Positions 1,022 through 37,790 of a stretch of DNA of 49,268 bases are shown here, piece by piece; position 1 is the stretch's first letter, and every line of letters begins with the position of its first letter. A program made the position numbers and the translations under genes. The stretch lies in the NCBI GenBank assembly GCA_947505255.1, contig CANNKP010000003.1, forward strand, positions 1 to 49,268. The letters run 5' to 3'. This stretch comes from Flavobacteriales bacterium. Lineage in GTDB: Bacteria > Bacteroidota > Bacteroidia > Flavobacteriales_D > Crocinitomicaceae. Under the pieces are notes generated by a model. The model saw only the letters and a list, made by a program, of their open reading frames with translations, was not told where the DNA came from and ran no database searches.

Positions 1022-1936
1022 ATGAGTAAGTCAGTTATTTTAAAATCCTCTATTGCCAAAAAATACTGGATGGCGTTTACAGGGTTGTTTTTATGTCTAT
1101 TCCTTGTGGGCCACCTTCTTGGAAATTTACAATTATTCTACGCTGGAGAAGAAGGTAGAAGAGCATTCAATGAGTATGCTTACTTCATGCAGCACAATTT
1201 GTTGATCAAAGTAATGTCATACGTTACTTATCTTTCAATCTTATTTCATGCTATTGATGGATTATTATTGGCTTTTCAAAACAAAAAAGCACGCCCAGTT
1301 CAATATGCAATGAACAAAGCATCTGCTAATTCGTCATCTGCTTCAAGACAAATGGCTTTATTAGGAAGTATTATTTTGATTTTCATTGCAACTCACATGG
1401 TGAACTTTTGGGGTAAAATGCATTTCGGAGAAATTCCATTGCATACTTTAACAAAGGCAGTAAATGTGCCCATTAGTCAAGACCCAAACACAGGCCAAAT
1501 AGTAAAAGCTGATATTGAATTTTCATATTTTCTAACTACAAATGGAGAATATAAGCAATATGCCTATAAAGACCCAAAAACTAAATTGTTTGAAAGTCAA
1601 ATGGAAGTTAGAGAAGAAACTAAATTGTTCGATAAAAATTCTAATCTAGAGGTAGCTGAAGGGTACAAAGATTTGCATTCAGTTGTAATGGGATTCTTTG
1701 GGAAAAGTGCAAATGGTAACGATGTAAACGAGTTAGCTTGGTTAGCAGTTTTATTGTACACAATTTCTATGGCTGTTCTTTCTTTTCACTTAATGCACGG
1801 ATTCGCTTCGGCTTTTCAAACATTAGGATTGCGTCATCCACGTTATACGGCAATCATTAAGAACGTTGGAATGGGATTCGCAATTATTGTCCCTGCAGCC
1901 TTTGCGGCAATTCCGTTGTACATTTTCTTTAAGTAA
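1022..1936 (+). CDS. sdhC: Succinate dehydrogenase cytochrome b subunit (b558 type), with hydrophilic insertion
   Basis: SdhC-like TM segments (KYWMAFTGLFLCLFLVGHLLGNL, HLMHGFASAFQTLGLRHPRY) directly upstream of sdhA and sdhB. Confidence 0.9.
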   Translation: MSKSVILKSSIAKKYWMAFTGLFLCLFLVGHLLGNLQLFYAGEEGRRAFNEYAYFMQHNLLIKVMSYVTYLSILFHAIDGLLLAFQNKKARPVQYAMNKASANSSSASRQMALLGSIILIFIATHMVNFWGKMHFGEIPLHTLTKAVNVPISQDPNTGQIVKADIEFSYFLTTNGEYKQYAYKDPKTKLFESQMEVREETKLFDKNSNLEVAEGYKDLHSVVMGFFGKSANGNDVNELAWLAVLLYTISMAVLSFHLMHGFASAFQTLGLRHPRYTAIIKNVGMGFAIIVPAAFAAIPLYIFFK

Positions 1937-1962
1937 TAATTCGATTTTAAAAATAGATTCAT

Positions 1963-3966
1963 ATGTCAATTTTAGACTCAAAAATACCTTCTGGCGAACT
2001 AAATCAAAAATGGTCTTCTTACAAAGATCACATTCGTTTAGTTAACCCAGCAAACAAAAGAAACATTGATATTATTGTTGTTGGAACAGGATTAGCTGGT
2101 GGTTCAGCTTCTGCTGCCTTGGCAGAGTTAGGATACAATGTTAAATCATTTTGTTTTCAAGATTCTCCACGTCGTGCGCACTCTATTGCAGCACAAGGTG
2201 GTATTAACGCTGCAAAAAATTACCAAGGTGATGGAGATTCTGTTTTCCGATTATTTTACGACACAGTAAAAGGTGGTGACTACAGAGCACGTGAAGCAAA
2301 TGTTTACCGTTTAGCGGAAGTTTCAGCTAGTATCATTGATCAATGTGTAGCTCAAGGTGTTCCTTTTGCCCGTGAATATGGCGGATTATTAGACAACCGT
2401 TCATTTGGTGGTTCTCAAGTTTCTCGTACGTTTTATGCCAAAGGGCAAACTGGACAACAACTTTTATTGGGCGCTTATTCAGCAATGTCTCGCCAAATTG
2501 GAAAAGGTAAAATCCAAATGTATAACCGTCACGAAATGCTAGATTTAGTTCTCGTAGATGGAAAAGCTCGCGGAATTATTGCAAGAAATCTTGTAACTGG
2601 TTCTCTTGAAAGATTTTCAGCTCACGCAGTTGTAATTGCTTCCGGAGGATATGGAAATGTATTCTATCTTTCAACTAATGCAATGGGTTCGAACGTTTCT
2701 GCTGCATGGAAGGTTCACAAAAAAGGAGCTTACTTCGCAAATCCTTGTTATACACAAATTCACCCAACATGTATTCCTGTTTCGGGTGATCATCAGTCTA
2801 AATTGACATTGATGTCTGAATCATTAAGAAACGATGGCCGTATTTGGGTTCCTAAAAATTTAGAGGATTCAAAAGCAATTCGTGAAGGTAGAATGAAGCC
2901 AACTGATATCACAGATGAAAACAAAGACTTTTTCTTAGAGCGTCGTTATCCTGCATTTGGAAACCTGGTTCCACGTGATGTTGCTTCTCGTGCAGCAAAA
3001 GAAAGATGTGACGCTGGTTTTGGGGTCAATACTACAGGTGAAGCAGTTTATTTAGATTTTGCATCAGCAATTGAGCGTTATGGCAGAGAAAAAGCGCGCA
3101 TGAATCACGATGGTGAAGCTTCAATTGAAATAATAATGGACCTTGGGGCTGAAGTTGTGAAAGCAAAATATGGCAATTTGTTCCAAATGTATTATAAGAT
3201 TGTAGATCAAGATCCTTATAAAACGCCGATGATGATTTATCCAGCCGTGCATTACACAATGGGTGGTGTTTGGGTTGATTATAACTTAATGACAACAATC
3301 ACAGGATGTTATGCAACTGGAGAAGCAAACTTCTCAGATCACGGTGCAAATCGTTTAGGTGCTTCTGCATTAATGCAAGGTTTAGCAGATGGTTATTTCG
3401 TTCTGCCGTATACAATTGCTGATTATTTAGCGGACGATATCAGAACGGGAAAAATTTCTACTGATTTACCTGAATTTGTTCAAACAGAAAATGATGTTAA
3501 AGCAAATATTGAGCGTTTGATGAACATCAAAGGGACGAAAACGGTAGATTATTTCCACAAGCGTTTAGGAAAAATAATGTGGGATAAAGTTGGAATGGCT
3601 CGAAATGCTGAAGGTTTAAACTGGGCTATCGCAGAAATTCAAAAATTACGGGAAGAATTTTATTCAAATGTTCGAATCCCAGGAACTGTTGATTCATTCA
3701 ATCCCGAATTAGACAAAGCAAATCGTGTTTGTGACTTCTTAGAATTAGGTGAATTAATGGCAAAAGACGCGCTTGACAGAGAAGAGTCTTGTGGTGGTCA
3801 TTTCCGTGAAGAACATCAAACAGAAGAAGGCGAAGCTCAACGAAATGATGATAAATATGCTTATGTTGCTGCTTGGGAATACACAGGGAAACCTTCAGAA
3901 GCTATTTTACACAAAGAAGCTTTGGTTTTTGACAATATTAAATTGGTTCAACGTAGTTATAAATAA
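1963..3966 (+). CDS. sdhA: Succinate dehydrogenase/fumarate reductase flavoprotein subunit
   Basis: FAD-binding [56 protein letters not shown]. Confidence 0.95.
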
Positions 3967-4037
3967 TAATCAGGTGATGACTGTTGTCGTATAGCAATGC
4001 TAAACACTAACAGCTAATTACTAATTACTTTAAAAAC

Positions 4038-4787
4038 ATGAAATTAACATTAAAAATCTGGAGACAAAGTGGACCAAATGATAAGGGTCAGATTGTAACC
4101 TATCCTATCGATAATATCGAGGGTGATATGTCATTCTTAGACATGATGGATGTTTTGAATGAAGAATTAATTGTAAAAGGAGAAGATCCTGTAGCGTTTG
4201 ATCACGATTGCCGTGAAGGAATCTGTGGAATGTGTTCATTATTTATTAATGGAGAAGCTCACGGACCTGATAGAGCAATTACTACATGTCAATTACACAT
4301 GCGTAAATTCAGCGATGGTGAAACTATTTATATTGAACCATGGAGAGCAAAAGCGTTTCCTGTAATCAAAGATTTAGTTGTTGACCGTGGAGCCTTAGAT
4401 AGAGTAATGGCTTCTGGAGGATTTGTATCTGTCAACACTTCAGGAAATACAGTTGATGCAAATGCAATTCCTATTTCTAAAATTGACGCAGATAAAGCAT
4501 TTGAAGCGGCAACTTGTATTGGTTGTGGCGCTTGTGTTGCTTCGTGTGTAAATGCATCAGCTATGCTTTTTGTATCAGCAAAAGTCTCTCAATTAGCACT
4601 TTTACCTCAAGGAAAAATTGAAGCAACGGAACGTGTTTTGAACATGGTTCGTACAATGGATGAAGAAGGTTTTGGAAATTGCACCAATACTGGAGCATGC
4701 GCTGTTGAATGCCCGAAAGAAATATCTTTGGACAATATTGCTCGCATGAATAGAGAATATTTTAAAGCAATGCTTACTTCAGAATAA
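4038..4787 (+). CDS. sdhB: Succinate dehydrogenase/fumarate reductase iron-sulfur subunit
   Basis: [16 protein letters not shown] and [11 protein letters not shown] Fe-S motifs. Confidence 0.95.
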
Positions 4788-4809
4788 AAGATTTATTCAT
4801 TATAAAATG

Positions 4810-4843
4810 AACCCCATTAGAACATGTTCTAATGGGGTTTTTT
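4810..4843 (+). terminator. Rho-independent terminator downstream of sdhB
   Basis: Perfect AACCCCATTAGAACA/TGTTCTAATGGGGTT palindrome followed by a T-run. Confidence 0.85.
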
Positions 4844-4933
4844 AATTGTCACAAACAAAAGTTAGGGAAATTCTTCTAGTTCATAACGAATTATTAATAA
4901 AATATTAACTTTAGTGCAAACAAAACTAAAATT

Positions 4934-6703
4934 ATGAAAAAACTATTACTAAGTCTAACACTTATTGGATCAGCTTTTATAGCCCAGTCTCAAGTAATTT
5001 GTGCTGGAATATCTCCTGCAGCGATTATTGGGAATTATAATTTCACATGGGCTACTGGTGGCGGTTGGGGAACACCTAATTTTTTAATAGCTGGAACGTT
5101 CGTTCAAGGAGATCTTATGGTTGCAGACGATGGAACTACAGGTTTAAGTGCGCAAGGAATTTCTTTAGGAAACTATGGTTGTTCTCCAGTGACAAACAAT
5201 TTAGCCGGGAAAATTGCGGTGGTTTATCGCTTTGACGGTGTAACGGCTTCAACAAATTGTGAATTTGGTGCTAAAGCATTGGCTTGTCAAACGGCTGGAG
5301 CTATTGGTGTTATTGTTGTTAACAGAGAAAACGCTGTGGCAAGCATGGGTGCAGGAGCTGTTGGTTCAACAGTTACTATTCCGGTTGTTATGATCAGTGA
5401 TGTTGATGGTGCTACTTTAAGAGCTGAAATGCTTAACGGACCTGTAAACATGTTCCTTGGAAACAAAATTGGTTTGTTCGCTGACGATGCTGGAGGTTTG
5501 CCTGGTACAACGTTAATCTCAAAATCATCAGGGGTGCTTTCTCAATTAGCTACTAATGCAAGTGAATTCAATTTCGAATTAGGAACACGTGTATATAACT
5601 ATGGTTTTAACGATCAAGCAAACGTAACGGTTACTGCAAACATTGATGGTCCTTCTGGCGCTACTGTTTATAATCAGCAAGTTGGACCGTTTCCAATCGT
5701 TTCTTTAGATAGTATCGATGTCTATCCTGGAGAAACATATTCTTTCCCTCAATTTTCTCTAGCAACTTATCCTGCTGGAAGGTATACATTAACGTATACG
5801 ATTGATTTAGGAACTGCTGATCAATATACTTCAGATAATATTATTACTTCAGAATTTATTGTCAATGATTCTATCTATACCTTTGCTCCGTTGGATTCTA
5901 TCACAAATCTTCCTGTTGCGAATAGCTATGGTCGTCCTGCATCAAACCATGTCACATATTCATCTTGTATGGTAATTGACAACCCAAACGCAAGCAGAAT
6001 TGGTATTGAAGGAATGTATTTCCAAGCCTTTACTAATGCGTCTGATTCTATAGATTTGTCTGGTGAGGAAATGCTTATGAACGTATACCGTTGGGAAGAT
6101 GTTTTTACAAACTTAAATGATGTAAACTTAGCTTTCACAGCATTATATTCAATCGCAGTTGGATATTATTACTACCCAAGTGATTTACAAAACCAAACAG
6201 TATATGGATCTTTTAGTGTGCCAGTTTCATTAGAAGATAACCAACGTTATCTTGTTTGCGTGCAAACAGTTAACCCAAAAGTATTCTTAGGATACGATTC
6301 TAAAAACGATTATTCTTGGAATGAAGGTTACTACTTGCAACCATTAACACCAATACAAGTTGATACTGCTTATTATGCTTCAGGATTCGGAATGGATACA
6401 CCATCTGCAATGGGTTTAAAAGTTTTCAATGCAGCTGAATTAGGAATAAAAGAAGTTGGTACTTTAGAAGGTGTGGCTTATCCTAATCCTGCAACTGACG
6501 TTATTACAGTTTCGTTGAAAGCAGAAGGAAATGCATCATTAATGATTACTGATGTTTCTGGTAAAGTAGCAATGAATTCAAAAATTAATCTTTTAAATGG
6601 AAAAGCTGAAATAGCTATTTCTTCTTTAGAAGCTGGAATGTATATTTTCAATATTACAACTGAAGGAGGTCAAACTTCTCAATTCAATGTTGTGAAGAAA
6701 TAA
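4934..6703 (+). CDS. Secreted PA-domain (protease-associated) protein with T9SS type A sorting domain
   Basis: Signal peptide MKKLLLSLTLIGSAFIAQSQ; PA-like NLAGKIAVVYRFDGV...CQTAGAIGVIVVN...IPVVMIS; C-term VAYPNPATDVITVSL...FNVVKK. Confidence 0.75.
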   Translation: MKKLLLSLTLIGSAFIAQSQVICAGISPAAIIGNYNFTWATGGGWGTPNFLIAGTFVQGDLMVADDGTTGLSAQGISLGNYGCSPVTNNLAGKIAVVYRFDGVTASTNCEFGAKALACQTAGAIGVIVVNRENAVASMGAGAVGSTVTIPVVMISDVDGATLRAEMLNGPVNMFLGNKIGLFADDAGGLPGTTLISKSSGVLSQLATNASEFNFELGTRVYNYGFNDQANVTVTANIDGPSGATVYNQQVGPFPIVSLDSIDVYPGETYSFPQFSLATYPAGRYTLTYTIDLGTADQYTSDNIITSEFIVNDSIYTFAPLDSITNLPVANSYGRPASNHVTYSSCMVIDNPNASRIGIEGMYFQAFTNASDSIDLSGEEMLMNVYRWEDVFTNLNDVNLAFTALYSIAVGYYYYPSDLQNQTVYGSFSVPVSLEDNQRYLVCVQTVNPKVFLGYDSKNDYSWNEGYYLQPLTPIQVDTAYYASGFGMDTPSAMGLKVFNAAELGIKEVGTLEGVAYPNPATDVITVSLKAEGNASLMITDVSGKVAMNSKINLLNGKAEIAISSLEAGMYIFNITTEGGQTSQFNVVKK

Positions 6704-6721
6704 TCTTATTCTTTAACAAAA

Positions 6722-6757
6722 CAAAAGAGTCGCTCGTATACGGGCGACTCTTTTGTT
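6722..6757. terminator. Intrinsic terminator between convergent genes
   Basis: CAAAAGAGTCGC-TCGTATACGG-GCGACTCTTTTG hairpin with flanking A and T runs. Confidence 0.8.
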
Positions 6758-6783
6758 TACATGAAACTTTTATTGCTCTTAAC

Positions 6784-7593
6784 CTAAAAGTTTAGTGATA
6801 ATCCAAATGTCAACGGATACACTTCTACTGTCTTTGTAACGTCAAACAAGGGTAGCAAACTGTAAGATGCAAAAGCTCCCCAAGATCCATAACCTAAACG
6901 AACGGTTCCATCCAATTTGAAAGAATTCAAACCATAAACTCCTTTGTTTTTTTGTTGAAATTCTTTTCCATCAACTTCACCTTCTCTTTTGATTTTAGAA
7001 GCTAATCTTACACCACCTATAACTCCTGCTGCCAAATAAAAACTTTTATCTGAGTCTTCATTTGTACAAAATTCCAACAACAACGGAACGGTTAAATACG
7101 CTGCTTTTAACTTGTTTTTTGAATAATCAATTACAGTGTCAATAGCTGCAAACAAGGTGTCTGGAGTGCTATTCAACACATAGTTATCTCTAAAAGCAAC
7201 TTGTGTAAAACTAAACCCTAACCCTGTTGTAATGCCAAAATATTCATGTGCTATTCCAAATTTATGCTCCAATACATTCAAATTCCATGTCATTGAACGT
7301 GCTGGATCATTTTTCCAATAAGGATTATTATCAAAACTTGTTTTAAATTGACCGTTTGTCATCATACTGAAACCCATATCTATTCCCGCCCAATGAGCCT
7401 CATATTTGTTCTTTTCAATTTCGTCTGGCGCAGCATCAATTGTATCTATTTCTTCTGAGATGTCATCAGAATGATCTATTAAAATAATTTCAATGTTTTT
7501 TATGTTGACACGTGTTGTATCTTTTTTTTCTTCTTCTTGCGCAAGAACTCCTGAACTAGCAAATAACAATGCTAAATAAATTATCTTTCTCAT
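6784..7593 (-). CDS. Outer-membrane beta-barrel family protein
   Basis: Signal peptide, barrel-like alternating strands (FGITTGLGFSFTQVAF, AYLTVPLLLEF), C-terminal PLTFGLSLNF. Confidence 0.6.
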   Translation of the reverse strand: MRKIIYLALLFASSGVLAQEEEKKDTTRVNIKNIEIILIDHSDDISEEIDTIDAAPDEIEKNKYEAHWAGIDMGFSMMTNGQFKTSFDNNPYWKNDPARSMTWNLNVLEHKFGIAHEYFGITTGLGFSFTQVAFRDNYVLNSTPDTLFAAIDTVIDYSKNKLKAAYLTVPLLLEFCTNEDSDKSFYLAAGVIGGVRLASKIKREGEVDGKEFQQKNKGVYGLNSFKLDGTVRLGYGSWGAFASYSLLPLFDVTKTVEVYPLTFGLSLNF

Positions 7594-27198: not shown

Positions 27199-30100
27199 AT
27201 GATTTTTGAGATTATAAAATTAAAAATATTTAAAAAAAACAGTTCTGAGTTTCAACCTTATTATGAGCGAGAAAATGATTTTAAAAGGCAAGCTTTTGTT
27301 CATGGTTTAGCAGCTTTAATAATTAGTCCTATATATTGTTTTCTTATATATAATACTGAGGTTTCTCCTGTTTATTTTTTTATTAGTTTGTCTTATTCAG
27401 TGATGTATCCTTTTTATGTAACACTCTGTTATTTTATAAAAAGGTTAACAAACAAACTACTCTATTTTTTCGTTTTTCATTTGTTTTTTGTGACATTTAT
27501 TGCATTTCAAGATTTGTTAGCAAATAATTTTGAATTATTTAGTTTATTTTGTTTTTACACGCTTTTTTCTGTTGTGTTATTCGTTGTTCAGCGGCTTTAT
27601 CCAGCTATATTATATAATTCTTTTGTATTGTTTTTATTAATATATGGATTTCAAATTAATGATAATACAGATAATTTAGAGGTTTCTAAATCGGCTATTT
27701 TTGGTTTATTTTTTATTATAGCATTGTGTTCTATTATCGTTTTATCATCTCGACAAAAAATGATTAATAGTGTTGAGGATTATTCAAAATATTTAAAAAA
27801 AATAGTAAATAATCCTGGTGTAGGATTTATATTATTTAAATTTAATTTAAGTTTTCAAAAAGTAATTGATCAAAATAGCGAATCATTTAAAATATTAGAT
27901 TGTACTGAAGAGGAATTAGAATTTATTATTTTATCCAACTTAACAGAAATTGAAAAAAACAAAATATTTTATTTAACACTCGGGGAAAGTTTTAGTAAAA
28001 AAATATGTATTACATATAAATCACCTAAAACAATAGAATTTGAGGTAAGTACTCTTTCTTTGAAAAATGGGTTTTATAAATTATTTCGAATTGTAGATAT
28101 TACAAATAGCGTAATTGAAAAAGAAGAATTATCGAAGAGTTTAACGAAAGATATAAATTTATATAACACAAATTTAGCAGGTGTATTTACAACCGATTTA
28201 TATTCAAAAATAATTGATTGTAACCAGTCATTCATTGAAATTTTTGAAAATGAACTATCATTAGGGAATTTTATTTTTACAGAAAACAGTCAATACGAAT
28301 GGATAGAAATTATAGCGCTAATAAAAAGAAAAGAGCGTCTTAAAAATTATCAAACACAGATTACCTTAAAAAATGGTACAACCAAAAGGTTAGTTTTTAA
28401 TTGGTTTTTTAATAAAAAGGAAAATCAAATAGAAGGTACGATTATAGATATATCTGAAATTCAAAAAGCTACAGACGCTTTGAGTCAAAATGAAGAGAAG
28501 TACAGATTGATTTATGAAGAATCAAATGATGCAATATTATTATTAGATGAGGATAAAATAATTGATGTGAACAGAAAAGGAATTCAATTATTTGGAATTC
28601 CTTATATAGAATTATTAGAAAAAGAATTAGTAGACCTTTCTTTAAACATAGAAGATAAAAACAGGCAGGAATATTTTAAAAACAAGGATATTCTTCAATC
28701 CTTGAAAAATGTTAAATTCAATTGGATTTTTAAGGGTAAAAATGACGCTATAGAAGCAGAAGTTGTAATTATTGAGTTAATGTTGGGTAGAAAAAAGTAT
28801 TACCAATGTGTGATTCATGATTTAACTCAAAGAAATATTAACACCAGAGCGATTGAATCAAACAGAAAAAGTTTTAAATCAATTTTAGATAATACACCTG
28901 AAGGAATTATTATAATAAATGATAATAATGTTTTATATAATAATCCCGAGGCAACTGTTTTACTAGGGACAAGTGAAATTATTTTAGAAAAATTATTTAT
29001 TAAAAATGACCAAAAACATTTTAATCAATTACTAAGCGATCAAAAGTTTAAAAAAGAAATTCAACAAAAGCAATTCAAATTACTAAAAGAGAATGCTCAA
29101 GAACTTTTAGTTGATGTAACGATTGTTACAACCGATTTTGAAGAAGTAGAATCGATTTTAGTTATTTTAAAAGATGTTTCACTTAGGAATGAACTATCGA
29201 AAGAAATTATTCGAGCGGAAATAGCTGAGGAAACGAATAAAAAATTAGAGAAAGAAATTAGAGAAAGAATAAAAACAGAAAAGCTTTTAAAAGAACAAAT
29301 TATTAGAAGTAACGCCATTTTTGATAGTTCTTCCAATACACTATTATTAACATTAGATACAGAATTTAACTTCTCTTCATTTAATACACATTGTCAAAAT
29401 TATTTTAATTATATGACGGATCAGAATATGGAGGTGAATATATCTTTTAATCTGTTCTTTAATAAATTGTTTCAAGAAAAAGAATTACGATTATTTAGAA
29501 AAATACTTAAAAACGTTATTAAAGGGTCTTCTAATCAAATAGAAACAGAATTTATTTCAAAGGGATTAAATAGATGGATAGAATTATTTATAAACCCTAT
29601 TTTTGATATAGAAGGAAAGGTTATTGAAATATCTTTGGTTGCTCATGATATTACCGATAAAAAGAACACAGAAAATCAAATAAAAGATTCCCTTAAAGAA
29701 AAAGAAGTACTCCTTAAAGAAATTCACCATCGGGTAAAAAATAATTTGCAAGTTATTTCAAGTATATTAAATTTACAAAGTTCCTTTGTTACAGATGAAA
29801 AGACACTAGAAATATTAGAAGAAAGCAGAAATAGAATTCATTCCATGGCTACAATTCATGAGAATCTTTATTTAACAACGAATTTTTCTTCTATTGATTT
29901 TGCTAGTTATTTACAAAATCTAACCACAAAACTAATTTCATCTTATCACGTTGCGCCAATAACAATTAATTTAAGAACAGAATTGACTTCAATTAATTTA
30001 TTATTGGATCAAGCAATTCCTTGCGGTCTATTAGTTAATGAATTAATTACAAACGCAATTAAATATGCGTTCATAAATAGGAGTGAAGGAGAAATAGTAA

Positions 30101-30306
30101 TAGGATTAAAAGAAAAGCAAGGAATTATAGAATTAAAAATCGAAGATAATGGTGTTGGTTTACCTCCAAATTTTGAAATATTTAATTCAAACTCACTTGG
30201 ATTACAATTAGTTTCGACTTTAGTAGAACAATTAGACGGAGAAATTAATTTTTCCAACGGAAAAGGAACAAAATATTTGATTACATTTGAAAAGGCTAAA
30301 CCATAA
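27199..30306 (+). CDS. Multi-PAS membrane sensor histidine kinase (HisKA_2/HWE-like)
   Basis: N-terminal TM region, multiple PAS-like segments ([21 protein letters not shown]), [43 protein letters not shown]. Confidence 0.9.
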   Translation: [1035 protein letters not shown]

Positions 30307-30311
30307 ATAAC

Positions 30312-31067
30312 ATGTCTAAAATTAATATACTTGTTGTAGAAGACGAGTCAATCGTTTCTAAAGATATTCAATATAGCCTAAATAAATTAGGCTATAATGT
30401 TGTTGGTGCCGCTTCTTCTGGTGATAAAGCGTTAGAAATAGCCAGAACCGAAAGTCCAGACCTTGTTTTAATGGATATTATGCTTAAAGGCACAATGAAC
30501 GGAATAGAAACTGCGGAAATTATTAAAGCAGAGCTTGCCATACCGATTGTTTTCCTTACAGCTTATGCTGATGAGTCAACCCTATCTAAAGCAAAAATAA
30601 CCGAACCTTATGGTTATATTATTAAACCCTTCAAAGAAATAGACCTTCACACTTCTATTGAAATGGCTATTTATAAGCACGGGAAGGAACAGGAGGTTGT
30701 TAGAGAACGAAACCTGTTATATTCTATTGTTGAGAACAAAGAGTCTTCTAGCGGCTTTATTTTCGTTAAATCTAATAGTAGATTGGTGAAACTTAATACA
30801 AGCGACATTTTTTATATTGAAGCTTTAAAAGATTATGTTGTAATTCATACAATTGATACTCGTTTTACAATTCACTCAACGATGAAAGACATTGAGTTGA
30901 AAATGGGCCCAGCTGAATTTGTTCGAGTTCACCGTTCTTTTATCGTGCGTTTAGATAAAATTGCAACAATAGAATTTCCAAATCTTACGCTCGAAAATGA
31001 TAAAAAAACCATTCCTATTGGTGGGTCTTTTCGTGATGATTTGAATAATAGAATTAAAACGGTTTAA
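30312..31067 (+). CDS. LytTR-type response regulator
   Basis: Receiver ILVVEDESIVSKDIQYSL...LVLMDIML...PIVFLTAYAD...GYIIKPF; LytTR IFYIEALKDYVVIHT...FVRVHRSFIVRLDKI. Confidence 0.93.
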   Translation: MSKINILVVEDESIVSKDIQYSLNKLGYNVVGAASSGDKALEIARTESPDLVLMDIMLKGTMNGIETAEIIKAELAIPIVFLTAYADESTLSKAKITEPYGYIIKPFKEIDLHTSIEMAIYKHGKEQEVVRERNLLYSIVENKESSSGFIFVKSNSRLVKLNTSDIFYIEALKDYVVIHTIDTRFTIHSTMKDIELKMGPAEFVRVHRSFIVRLDKIATIEFPNLTLENDKKTIPIGGSFRDDLNNRIKTV

Positions 31068-33330: not shown

Positions 33331-33852
33331 ATGAACAAGCGTGTAGAACAAGCATTAAACGATCAAATTGAAAAGGAAGCATCTTCATCTCAATTTTATT
33401 TAGCAATGGCCTCTTGGGCCGAAAACAACGGTTTAAACGGAACGGCAAAGTTCATGTATTCTCATTCAGATGAAGAAAGGTTTCACATGTTGAAACTTGT
33501 AAAGTTTGTAAACGAAAGAGGGGGTAAAGCAATAATTCCTAAAATTGGTCAGCCACAAAAAGAATTTAAAGATTTAGTAAATGTTTTTGAATTATTATTG
33601 GCGCACGAAATAATGGTAACAGATAGCATTAATAATTTGGTAGATATTTGTTTACAAGAAAAAGATTATTCGACTCATAATTTTGTTCAATGGTATGTTT
33701 CTGAACAATTAGAAGAAGAAGCCTTAGCGCGAACAGTTTTAGATAAATTAAAATTGATTGGAGGGGATAAAGGAGGAATGTACATGTTTGATAGAGATTT
33801 AGAAAACTCTGCGATACAATTAGCTCCAACAGCCCCTAGCGCAAATAATTAA
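33331..33852 (+). CDS. ftnA: Ferritin (non-heme)
   Basis: LNDQIEKEASSSQFYLAMASWAENNGLNGTAKFMYSHSDEERFHMLKL. Confidence 0.93.
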   Translation: MNKRVEQALNDQIEKEASSSQFYLAMASWAENNGLNGTAKFMYSHSDEERFHMLKLVKFVNERGGKAIIPKIGQPQKEFKDLVNVFELLLAHEIMVTDSINNLVDICLQEKDYSTHNFVQWYVSEQLEEEALARTVLDKLKLIGGDKGGMYMFDRDLENSAIQLAPTAPSANN

Positions 33853-33881: not shown

Positions 33882-36800
33882 ATGAGAATATTTATTCTAA
33901 TAGGACTGCTTGTGTGTTTTTCCCTAAAAGGGACAGGACAAACCGCATACCGATTTAGAAATTACACAATTAATCAAGGCCTTTCTCAAAGCTCTGTTAC
34001 ATGCATTGTTCAAGATAAAAATCACGCCCTTTGGGTTGGAACACAAGATGGATTAAATCGTTTTGATGGTAAGAATTTTGAAGTTTTTACTTCCGATGAT
34101 ACACCAGGAATTGAAAGTGAATATATTAAATGTGCCATCAAAACAAATAACGGAAATTTATGGTTTGGCACAACAAATGGCTTAACTCAATACAATCCGA
34201 ACACAGAGGTATTTGAAACATTTTCATTAGAACAAAAGACCGCTCTACAAATAGAAAGCCTTTGCATTGATCCATCGGGTATTATTTGGGTTGGTACAAA
34301 TGGACGAGGTGTTTTAAGTTTTAACCCCGAAACCCAACAATTCAAACATTACCCGAATCTCATAAACTCTAAAAAAATTCAGGCAGTTTTTTGTGCCGAA
34401 TCAGGAGAGCTTTTTGTTAACACAGAAGATAAAGGTTTGTTTGGCACCAATAAAACCAAAACCAACGCTTTTTTAATACCAATTAAAAACAAGAGCGAAA
34501 ATCCTGTAATAATCCAAAGGATAACTCAAAGTGAATCAGGTAAAATATTATTTGGAAGTAATCAAGGGGTTTTTGAATTTTCGATAGCACAAAATAAAAT
34601 GTATCCGAAGTTTCCTCAATTGGAGTTGGAACATGGTTTTATGGGGGTTGCAGACATTTATTTATCTCAAAACAAAAGTTGGTTTATTGCTACAACAAAT
34701 AAGGGTTTGTTTACAATTGCCCCAGACGGAAGTATTTTTAGCAGCACACAAGATATTTTTCAAAAAAACGCCCTGTTGTTCAATGATATAAATCTTTTGT
34801 TTTGTGATGATTCAGGAACATTTTGGGTTGGCACAGATCGAGGGTTAGCTAGTTTTGACCCAATGAACCAAGGTTTTTTAGGTGTGGGCCCTAGTGGAAA
34901 TTTAGAACAAGGAATTCCAACACCAAACGTTTGGAGCTTTAGTGAAGACAAGAAAGGACTTTTTACATTTATTGGAACAGACATCGGTGTTTCGAGGTTC
35001 AACCGAAAGTCTGGTAAATTCGAACAATTTTATAGAGATAACTCTCAATCTATTACAGGAGAAAGCGCAGAAACGGCAGCCCTTTCTTTATATGTTATTA
35101 ATGAAAACAGAGCGCTTGTTGGCTGTGTAGACGGATTATTTGAATTAAACATTCAATCAAAAACCAATTATTCTTTCAAACGAATTGATTATTTAAAAGA
35201 GGAAGAATCATTAAAACATAATCGAATATATTCAATTGTTCATTGGAAGGATGACCGCTATTTTCTTGGAACGAAGGGCGGGGCTGTGTTGGTTGATTTG
35301 AAAAATAAAAAGGCTCAATCTTTTGAACACTCATTAAAAAACCCAAAAGGAACGATTACATCAGGAGTTTGTCGGCATATTTACAAAGACAATCAGAATA
35401 GAATTTGGTTTGCCTCAAGTTCAGGAGAGCTTAATTTATTATCTGTTAAATCAGAAAAGATAGAAATCGTTCCTTATAAATACAATTCAATTTTATTGAA
35501 AGTGTCAAAAGATTATATTACATCAATCTGTCAGATAAATAAAAATGAATTTTGGCTAGGAACCTTTGGGTCAGGTATAATGCACTGGAACGAAGCAACA
35601 AAAACCGCAAAAATTTATACAAAGAAACAAGGATTACCAAATAACGTTGTGTATGGAATTGTTGAAGACTTTGAAAATAATTTATGGTTAAGCACCAACA
35701 AAGGTATTTGTAGATTTAACCCACGCACAAAAGAGGCAACGAATTATACGGAAGTTGATGGATTAATGAGTAATGAGTTCAATTTAGGGGCTTTTATGAA
35801 ATCAACATCGGGAGAACTTTTTTTTGGGGGTATTTATGGGTATAATTATTTTAATCCAAAGAAACTTTCACTAAACAAACCTAATATTAGCGTCACAATC
35901 ACAAAATTCAAATTAGACAAAAACTGGATAAAACCAGGAGATAAAGATTCACCACTTTTATTACCGATTTCAAGAACGACTCACATTGAATTAAGTTATA
36001 GACAGAGAAGTTTTACCGTTCACTTTCAGCCATCAGATTTGAGTAATCCTGAATTAGTTAATTATAAATATATTTTAGAAGGATCTGATGAAGGAGAGGT
36101 TATTTTAGGATCGTCAAATGAATTAAGGTTTAGTTTATTGTCTCCTGGTGATTATACGTTGAAAATTTATGCTAGAATTGGCGATGGACCTTGGGGTAAT
36201 AGCCCTGCAATTTTAACGTTACATATAAAATCTCCCTTTTGGGCAACATGGTGGTTCTGGGTTATTGTCGCAATTGTTTTAGCAATATCCATACGACTTT
36301 TTGTAAGAAGCCGAATTGATTCCGAGAGGAGAAAGCAAGTTCGTTTAGAAATGAAAATTGCTGATAGAACACGCGAAATAAGAGAACAAAATGTTCAAAT
36401 CGAAAAACAAAGAAAACAACTTGAAGAAGAGAAGAACAAAGTGGTTAATAACCAACTCCTTTTGCAAATAGAGAAGGACAAAACAGAAAAATTAATTCGT
36501 AGAATTATTCCAGAATCTACAGCTGAGGAATTAAAGAACAAAGGAACAGCGAGTGCGCGAGCATACAAAACAGTATCTGTATTATTTACAGATTTTGTTG
36601 GGTTTACTAAAAGTGCAGAGCGCATGAGCCCGACGGATTTAGTGAATAAGTTAGATGTTTATTTCAGTAAATTTGACGAAATAATAGTTAAAAATAATCT
36701 AGAGAAAATAAAGACTATTGGTGACGCATATATGTGCGCTGGGGGTGTGCCTGTGCGAAACAATACAAATCCAATTGACACCTGTATTGCTGCTTTACAG

Positions 36801-37790
36801 ATTCAAGATTACATGCGTATACGTAAAAACAACAGTATTATTAATAACACTGAATATTGGGAATTGCGTTTAGGTATTAATACCGGAGAAGTTGTTGCTG
36901 GTGTTATTGGAAGCGAAAGATTAGCTTATGATGTTTGGGGCGCGACAGTAAACCAGGCGCAACGCATGGAAATGCTCGGTGAACCAGGTAAAGTTACAAT
37001 AACGGGAAATACTTTTGTGCTAGTTGAACCTTATTTTGAGTGTGTTTTCAGGGGAAAAGCACAATCAAAAAGTAGAGGATTGATTGACATGTACACTGTT
37101 GAACGAATCAAGCCAGAGCTTTCTGTGGATGGAGAAGGAGTTGTTCCTAATGAGCGTTTTCAGCAAATTGTAAACCTGCACCTTTATAGTTCTATCAATT
37201 ATTATAAAGCGGAGCGCCACATTGTGAAAGTACTTGAAAAAGGACTTTCTGATAAATTACATTACCACGGAATTGCGCACACCAAAGATGTAGTTAGAGC
37301 GGTTGAGCGTTTAGCTTTGATAGAAGGAGTTACCGATGAGGGCTTGTTTCTTTTAAAATCAGCTGCTACATATCACGATGCTGGATTTGTGGAACAATAT
37401 GATAAGAACGAACCAATTGGCGCACGTTTAGCAGAAGAAATTCTGCCAAAGTATGGTTATACGGAACAACATATCAATACGATTAAAGAACTTATTTATG
37501 TAACCCAGATTCCTCACAAGCCAACCAATAACCTAGAGGAAATTATTTGCGATGCTGATTTGGATTATTTAGGGAGAGATGACTTCCATGAAATTGCTGA
37601 TAGGCTGCGGAGAGAACTTCGTGAACAAGGTAAAATAGACAGTGATCGTAAATGGGACGAGATTCAAGTTCAGTTCCTTACGGCGCATAAATATTTCACC
37701 GCAACGGCTTTGAAAACTAGAGCAGGTAAAAAAGAAAAAAATCTTGAAGAGATAAAGGCAAGATTACTTAAGGATGAATATGTGGATTAG
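33882..37790 (+). CDS. Sensor propeller + Y_Y_Y + TM + class III adenylate cyclase + HD phosphohydrolase fusion
   Basis: Reg_prop repeats (YTINQGLSQSSVTCIVQDKNHALWVGTQDGLNRFDG), TM FWATWWFWVIVAIVLAISIRLFV, cyclase VLFTDFVGFTKSAERM/EKIKTIGDAYMCAGGVP/GEVVAGVIGSERLAYDVWGATVNQAQRMEMLG, HD YHGIAHTKDVVRAVERL...ATYHDAGF...CDADLDYLG. Confidence 0.9.
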   Translation: MRIFILIGLLVCFSLKGTGQTAYRFRNYTINQGLSQSSVTCIVQDKNHALWVGTQDGLNRFDGKNFEVFTSDDTPGIESEYIKCAIKTNNGNLWFGTTNGLTQYNPNTEVFETFSLEQKTALQIESLCIDPSGIIWVGTNGRGVLSFNPETQQFKHYPNLINSKKIQAVFCAESGELFVNTEDKGLFGTNKTKTNAFLIPIKNKSENPVIIQRITQSESGKILFGSNQGVFEFSIAQNKMYPKFPQLELEHGFMGVADIYLSQNKSWFIATTNKGLFTIAPDGSIFSSTQDIFQKNALLFNDINLLFCDDSGTFWVGTDRGLASFDPMNQGFLGVGPSGNLEQGIPTPNVWSFSEDKKGLFTFIGTDIGVSRFNRKSGKFEQFYRDNSQSITGESAETAALSLYVINENRALVGCVDGLFELNIQSKTNYSFKRIDYLKEEESLKHNRIYSIVHWKDDRYFLGTKGGAVLVDLKNKKAQSFEHSLKNPKGTITSGVCRHIYKDNQNRIWFASSSGELNLLSVKSEKIEIVPYKYNSILLKVSKDYITSICQINKNEFWLGTFGSGIMHWNEATKTAKIYTKKQGLPNNVVYGIVEDFENNLWLSTNKGICRFNPRTKEATNYTEVDGLMSNEFNLGAFMKSTSGELFFGGIYGYNYFNPKKLSLNKPNISVTITKFKLDKNWIKPGDKDSPLLLPISRTTHIELSYRQRSFTVHFQPSDLSNPELVNYKYILEGSDEGEVILGSSNELRFSLLSPGDYTLKIYARIGDGPWGNSPAILTLHIKSPFWATWWFWVIVAIVLAISIRLFVRSRIDSERRKQVRLEMKIADRTREIREQNVQIEKQRKQLEEEKNKVVNNQLLLQIEKDKTEKLIRRIIPESTAEELKNKGTASARAYKTVSVLFTDFVGFTKSAERMSPTDLVNKLDVYFSKFDEIIVKNNLEKIKTIGDAYMCAGGVPVRNNTNPIDTCIAALQIQDYMRIRKNNSIINNTEYWELRLGINTGEVVAGVIGSERLAYDVWGATVNQAQRMEMLGEPGKVTITGNTFVLVEPYFECVFRGKAQSKSRGLIDMYTVERIKPELSVDGEGVVPNERFQQIVNLHLYSSINYYKAERHIVKVLEKGLSDKLHYHGIAHTKDVVRAVERLALIEGVTDEGLFLLKSAATYHDAGFVEQYDKNEPIGARLAEEILPKYGYTEQHINTIKELIYVTQIPHKPTNNLEEIICDADLDYLGRDDFHEIADRLRRELREQGKIDSDRKWDEIQVQFLTAHKYFTATALKTRAGKKEKNLEEIKARLLKDEYVD

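Follow-up and report, generated by a model that had tools for sequence, protein, structure and literature searches.

A predicted receptor of Crocinitomicaceae combining a periplasmic propeller sensor, a class III cyclase and a putative HD-type phosphohydrolase in one chain

Introduction

Could a single membrane receptor of a Bacteroidota bacterium both make and break down a cyclic nucleotide in response to an external signal? This question is raised by one gene on a 49,268-nucleotide stretch of DNA from a Flavobacteriales bacterium of the family Crocinitomicaceae (contig CANNKP010000003.1; the whole stretch is hereafter called the window), whose predicted product combines a sensor, a class III nucleotidyl cyclase and an HD-type hydrolase domain. 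One messenger is made and broken down in a single chain by GGDEF-EAL and RelA/SpoT proteins, which represent other synthase families and other messengers than the receptor described here. An adenylyl cyclase with phosphodiesterase (CAPE) occurs in Marchantia and other streptophytes (PMC5159850, PMC8115329), and its cyclase and phosphodiesterase domains are each active in vitro (PMC5159850). CAPE thus demonstrates that both activities can coexist when a class III cyclase and a phosphodiesterase are joined in one protein. The receptor resembles CAPE in holding a class III cyclase and an HD-fold phosphodiesterase, the latter putative in the receptor, in one chain, whereas CAPE has an N-terminal class I PDE and the receptor a short C-terminal HD domain together with a periplasmic propeller sensor. 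Cyclic AMP signalling in Bacteroidota is poorly known, and the four genomes of this phylum that were available to a 2005 census yielded no adenylate cyclase (PMC1183210). A receptor that couples a sensor to the making and probable breaking of a cyclic nucleotide would give an entry point into this signalling.

Gene and domain organization

The open reading frame spans positions 33882–37790 of the window on the plus strand and encodes 1302 amino acids from an ATG start. It is not a chance reading frame, because 1302 codons are free of stops and full-length orthologues exist at 42–88% identity. The initial annotation had proposed a domain order from a signal peptide to an HD hydrolase, which was borne out by Pfam, by a match to the solved structure 4a2l and by the HD motif. 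A signal peptide was assigned by eye to residues 1–19 (33882–33938), with Gln20 as the mature N-terminus according to the Q-rule outlined for Bacteroidetes signal peptides (PMC5837995). The following periplasmic region of Reg_prop beta-propeller repeats (approximately residues 20–700, 33939–35981; Pfam E 4.5e-31, structures 4a2l and 3v9f) leads into a Y_Y_Y domain (residues 721–783, 36042–36230; E 1.6e-12). The best solved relative of this entire sensor part is 4a2l, a Bacteroides HTCS sensor (E 8e-86). A single transmembrane helix (approximately residues 788–808, 36243–36305) was recognized by eye from the hydrophobic stretch WATWWFWVIVAIVLAISIRLFV. Also by eye, a coiled coil with a cyclase-transducing element was placed at approximately residues 812–890 (36315–36551), a region that forms a long helix in a low-confidence model; the element is EKLIRRIIPESTAEELKNKG at the end of the charged coiled coil, which we take to resemble the cyclase-transducing element of class III cyclases. 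The cyclase domain (residues 892–1074, 36555–37103; Pfam Guanylate_cyc, E 1.2e-43, and alignments) is followed by the predicted HD-type metal hydrolase domain (approximately residues 1110–1300, 37209–37781), which was assigned from its motif, alignments and a fold search. A 503-residue model was too poor (pLDDT 55.8, pTM 0.34) to place the cyclase and HD domains relative to each other.

From these features we infer a transmembrane topology like that of the Bacteroides HTCS (4a2l), with which the receptor shares the periplasmic Reg_prop propellers, the Y_Y_Y domain and one transmembrane helix. The output differs, as a cyclase and an HD domain take the place of histidine kinase, receiver and AraC domains, and the Pfam scan of the receptor contained no HisKA/HATPase kinase core.

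Cyclase domain

The catalytic domain matched PF00211 with 149.3 bits against a cut-off of 21.9. Alignment with the mammalian cyclase AC9 identified the residues D904, D948, K944, D1017, N1024, R1028 and K1063, among which we take D904/D948 to be the metal-binding aspartates, K944/D1017 the adenine pair and N1024/R1028 the transition-state pair. A set of 21 diverse aligned sequences retains all seven residues throughout, as do nearly all of the 49 rows of a second alignment. The ATP-type residues that had been read from the sequence alone were all confirmed by the AC9 alignment and the orthologues. The cyclase half of the receptor is well supported at the level of sequence, and the domain is predicted to use ATP, to dimerize and to be controlled by the sensor. 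The exceptions to this conservation are four close Fluviicola-type orthologues (L034, L035, L036 and L043), in which Gln replaces the transition-state Arg1028 and the cyclase may be less active.

Distribution in Crocinitomicaceae and other Bacteroidota

The source genome has a size of 2.76 Mb and is 69% complete. Across 58 genomes of Crocinitomicaceae, the receptor was found as a full-length, single-copy gene in 49, was split by contig ends or frame in four, and occurred in four more as a form of about 525–545 amino acids without the propeller; it was absent from one poor genome (59% complete). The gene is a family-wide single-copy core gene of Crocinitomicaceae. No separate propeller gene was located beside the propeller-less orthologues in L084 or L085. 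Four loci whose genome titles name Actinomyces viscosus, Chitinophaga pinensis, Candidatus Kuenenia and Chryseobacterium gleum (L031, L032, L035 and L036, respectively) carry the Crocinitomicaceae receptor gene in its usual surroundings, and these names of metagenome-assembled genomes look wrong.

Versions of 1250–1377 amino acids are present in five other families of the same order (f3, f6, f10, f11 and f13). Outside the order, 297 genomes of the phylum yielded propeller-cyclases without an HD domain, standalone HD proteins and one kinase-GAF-cyclase-HD protein. The propeller-cyclases of other Bacteroidota families (L082, L083 and L087) share the Reg_prop/Y_Y_Y sensor, the transmembrane helix and the class III cyclase with the receptor but lack its HD domain. 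Hence, the replacement of a kinase by a cyclase output, which the initial annotation had regarded as a swap of effector, is by itself ordinary in this phylum. The source genome also encodes a REC-cyclase-HD paralogue (L003) with the same cyclase-HD module (37% identical), which has a receiver as input and no membrane sensor, and a further cyclase at a contig edge (L001).

In the literature searched, we found no characterized protein of the propeller-cyclase-HD architecture, in agreement with the initial annotation, and no description of the cyclase-linked HD clade defined below. Propeller sensors themselves are already known, and proteins that join a propeller to a cyclase are widespread.

Identity and fold of the HD domain

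A Pfam scan of the full-length protein did not pick up the HD domain. When the region was scanned alone, PF01966 matched with E 4.4e-4 and 21.0 bits, just under the gathering score of 22.0, and related HD domains elsewhere exceed the Pfam cut-off (clearly so in L075, L080 and L081). A search of PDB sequences for the identity of the domain returned chance EF-hand matches only. The motif consists of H1129, H1133, H1165-D1166, E1177, T1208, D1224, D1226 and D1228. It is invariant in all relatives covering it, including 21 of 21 diverse rows, and about 50 further HD proteins retain every position except the final Asp. The hydrolase motif is intact and its metal ligands are unchanged across the orthologues, which upholds the assignment as an HD domain despite the sub-threshold score. 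Since the cyclase site and the HD site are kept in the same alignments, neither is decaying.

HD folds can also act as sensors, and the position of the domain beside the cyclase would fit allosteric feedback, with the HD domain serving as a nucleotide-binding but non-catalytic regulator of the cyclase. We consider this improbable, because the metal ligands together with E, T and DAD are invariant in the 21 diverse rows and in the wider HD family.

A model of the HD domain built from 13 sequences was all-helical and of middling confidence (pLDDT 69). In a fold search with this model, YpgQ, a nucleotide hydrolase and HD protein of Bacillus solved with ADP, ranked first, followed by uncharacterized HD hydrolases and, close behind, by many structures of PDE4, a class I cyclic nucleotide phosphodiesterase. 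The YpgQ and PDE4 matches had high probabilities and E values above 0.005. No match reached an E value under 0.001, and the PDB contains a disproportionate number of PDE4 structures; the search therefore tentatively supports the HD fold but names no substrate. PF00233 (PDEase_I) did not match the receptor in either the full-length or the HD-alone Pfam scan, and the HD domains of two standalone relatives gave a weak, sub-threshold PDEase_I score.

The top ranks of YpgQ with its ADP and of uncharacterized HD hydrolases are compatible with a rather unlikely reading. In this reading, the propeller controls an adenylate cyclase of the ordinary kind, and the substrate of the HD domain is not the product of that cyclase but either an NTP, as for YpgQ, or a 5'-nucleotide, pyrophosphate or an alarmone, whose hydrolysis would couple the output of the cyclase to the nucleotide state. 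The genomic surroundings of related HD domains bear on this reading from both sides.

Association of an HD clade with class III cyclases

Cyclase and HD profiles were run against the DNA around some 50 HD loci, and a tree of 60 HD domains resolved two clades, A and B, with a split support of 100/100. A site was counted as cyclase-linked if a cyclase was fused to the HD domain or encoded within about 8 kb, with the propeller proteins and the REC paralogue left out of the count. By this measure, 16 of 26 sites in clade B were linked to a cyclase, compared to at most one of 25 in the sister clade A, where the sole possible link is a weak match at L121. All cyclase fusions and nearly all cyclase neighbours belong to clade B, in which ten sites had no cyclase nearby. 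A Fisher test on a score-based split that is nearly identical to the tree clades gave p = 2e-5, a value that overstates the evidence, since neighbouring genes cannot be counted as independent cases when the genomes are related.

Clade B HD domains occur in three different cyclase fusions, namely the propeller receptor, the REC-cyclase-HD protein (L003) and a kinase-AAA-GAF-cyclase-HD protein (L092). REC-cyclases lie beside clade B HD genes at six further loci (L075, L076, L081, L089, L093 and L099), with the two genes in close proximity in the first three, and at L088 (positions 1313–6810) two cyclase genes, an HD gene and a YitT gene follow each other on one strand. The clearest cases are L088 and L075, L076 and L081, and taken together the genomes link the clade B HD to class III cyclases.

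Members of clade B are also fused to YitT membrane proteins or encoded immediately beside them. The HD-YitT fusion was seen in L089, L093, L097 and L099, and in other cases the genes overlap or abut. Two proteins of about 860–880 amino acids (L080, 4387–6966; L081, 6099–8741) combine a TIR-like N-terminus, recognized by eye, with TPRs and a C-terminal HD domain, and the gene in L081 adjoins a REC-cyclase.

Fusions of related HD domains to YitT, TIR-TPR or PycTM, some with no cyclase near, fit the hydrolysis of a different nucleotide. On the other hand, the repeated fusion or adjacency to cyclases within one HD clade points to the cyclase's own product, and the name PycTM itself refers to an effector of cyclic-nucleotide signalling.

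Clade A HD domains frequently form fusions with PycTM, which is the effector domain of Pycsar. Such HD-PycTM proteins (PF18967, about 405–437 amino acids; L120, 7728–8945, and L098, L103, L104, L108, L109, L111, L112, L117, L122 and L128) are common in other Bacteroidota, where no cyclase is nearby, and may be Pycsar-type effectors that carry their own off-switch. Pycsar systems (PycC/PycTM) and the receptor share the class III cyclase fold, and PADLOC models for PycC match the receptor cyclase with E 5e-12. Together with the PycTM fusions in the sister HD clade, this match might suggest that the cyclase forms a cyclic pyrimidine or cGMP in a Pycsar-like defence. However, PycC matches of this kind are common to class III cyclases in general and extend over the catalytic domain alone, and K944/D1017 represent an intact adenine pair. 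PycTM was detected in only two of the 58 family genomes, PF18967 being absent from the other 56 and from the source genome, and no Pycsar effector was present among the scanned or syntenic neighbours of the receptor, which thus lacks a PycTM partner. Moreover, a family-wide core gene with conserved surroundings is unlike a defence island. We therefore rejected the defence reading as very improbable, based on the rarity of PycTM in the family and the generic PycC matches.

Proposed function

We propose, with a probability of about 0.5, that the protein is a one-component receptor in which the propeller controls cAMP synthesis and the HD domain most likely hydrolyses the same cyclic nucleotide. 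A periplasmic ligand or stress would alter the propeller dimer of the HTCS-type sensor. From there the signal would cross the membrane in the single transmembrane helix, run along a parallel coiled coil and reach the class III adenylate cyclase, a predicted homodimer that would form cAMP from ATP. These early steps are derived from families that are already known. The HD domain at the C-terminus would act as a metal-dependent phosphohydrolase, most likely degrading the product of its own cyclase. By combining synthesis and breakdown in one chain, as GGDEF-EAL, RelA/SpoT and plant CAPE proteins do, the receptor could set the signal and confine it in space, or render it self-limiting. The least secure step is that of the HD domain, for which genomic association and fold suggest cAMP as the substrate at roughly even odds.

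More tentatively, the HD domain may represent an undescribed Bacteroidota family of 3',5'-cNMP phosphodiesterases that occur standalone, with YitT or TIR-TPR partners and in cyclase fusions, and the receptor might be a periplasm-sensing bifunctional cAMP synthase/hydrolase kept across the bacterial family. For the class III cyclases of Bacteroidota, the HD clade would be a candidate for a missing off-switch enzyme.

The initial annotation had suggested a search for a CRP-like cAMP receptor, and none was recognized in the incomplete source genome or in the relatives examined. By eye, the phosphate-binding Arg of CRP is absent from both cNMP_binding proteins of the 69%-complete genome and from 16 CRP-family proteins of relatives, and all of these proteins are of FNR-like or REC-CRP types.

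Gene neighbourhood

A ferritin gene on the same strand (33331–33852) ends 29 bp upstream of the receptor gene and is a possible operon partner. Ferritin is located directly upstream in 17 of 31 related loci (11 related loci and 6 of 20 more distant ones) and one ORF away in L171, whereas the propeller-less forms of the same genus in L084 and L176 have neither ferritin nor propeller. At five loci from four other genera (L160, L161, L166, L167 and L168), ferritin is replaced by a gene for a SpoIIE/SiaA-like phosphatase sensor 2–5 bp upstream. This patchy occurrence indicates that ferritin is a frequent but not an obligate partner of the receptor. Elsewhere in the window (27199–31067), a PAS-rich HisKA_2 histidine kinase is followed by a LytTR response regulator.
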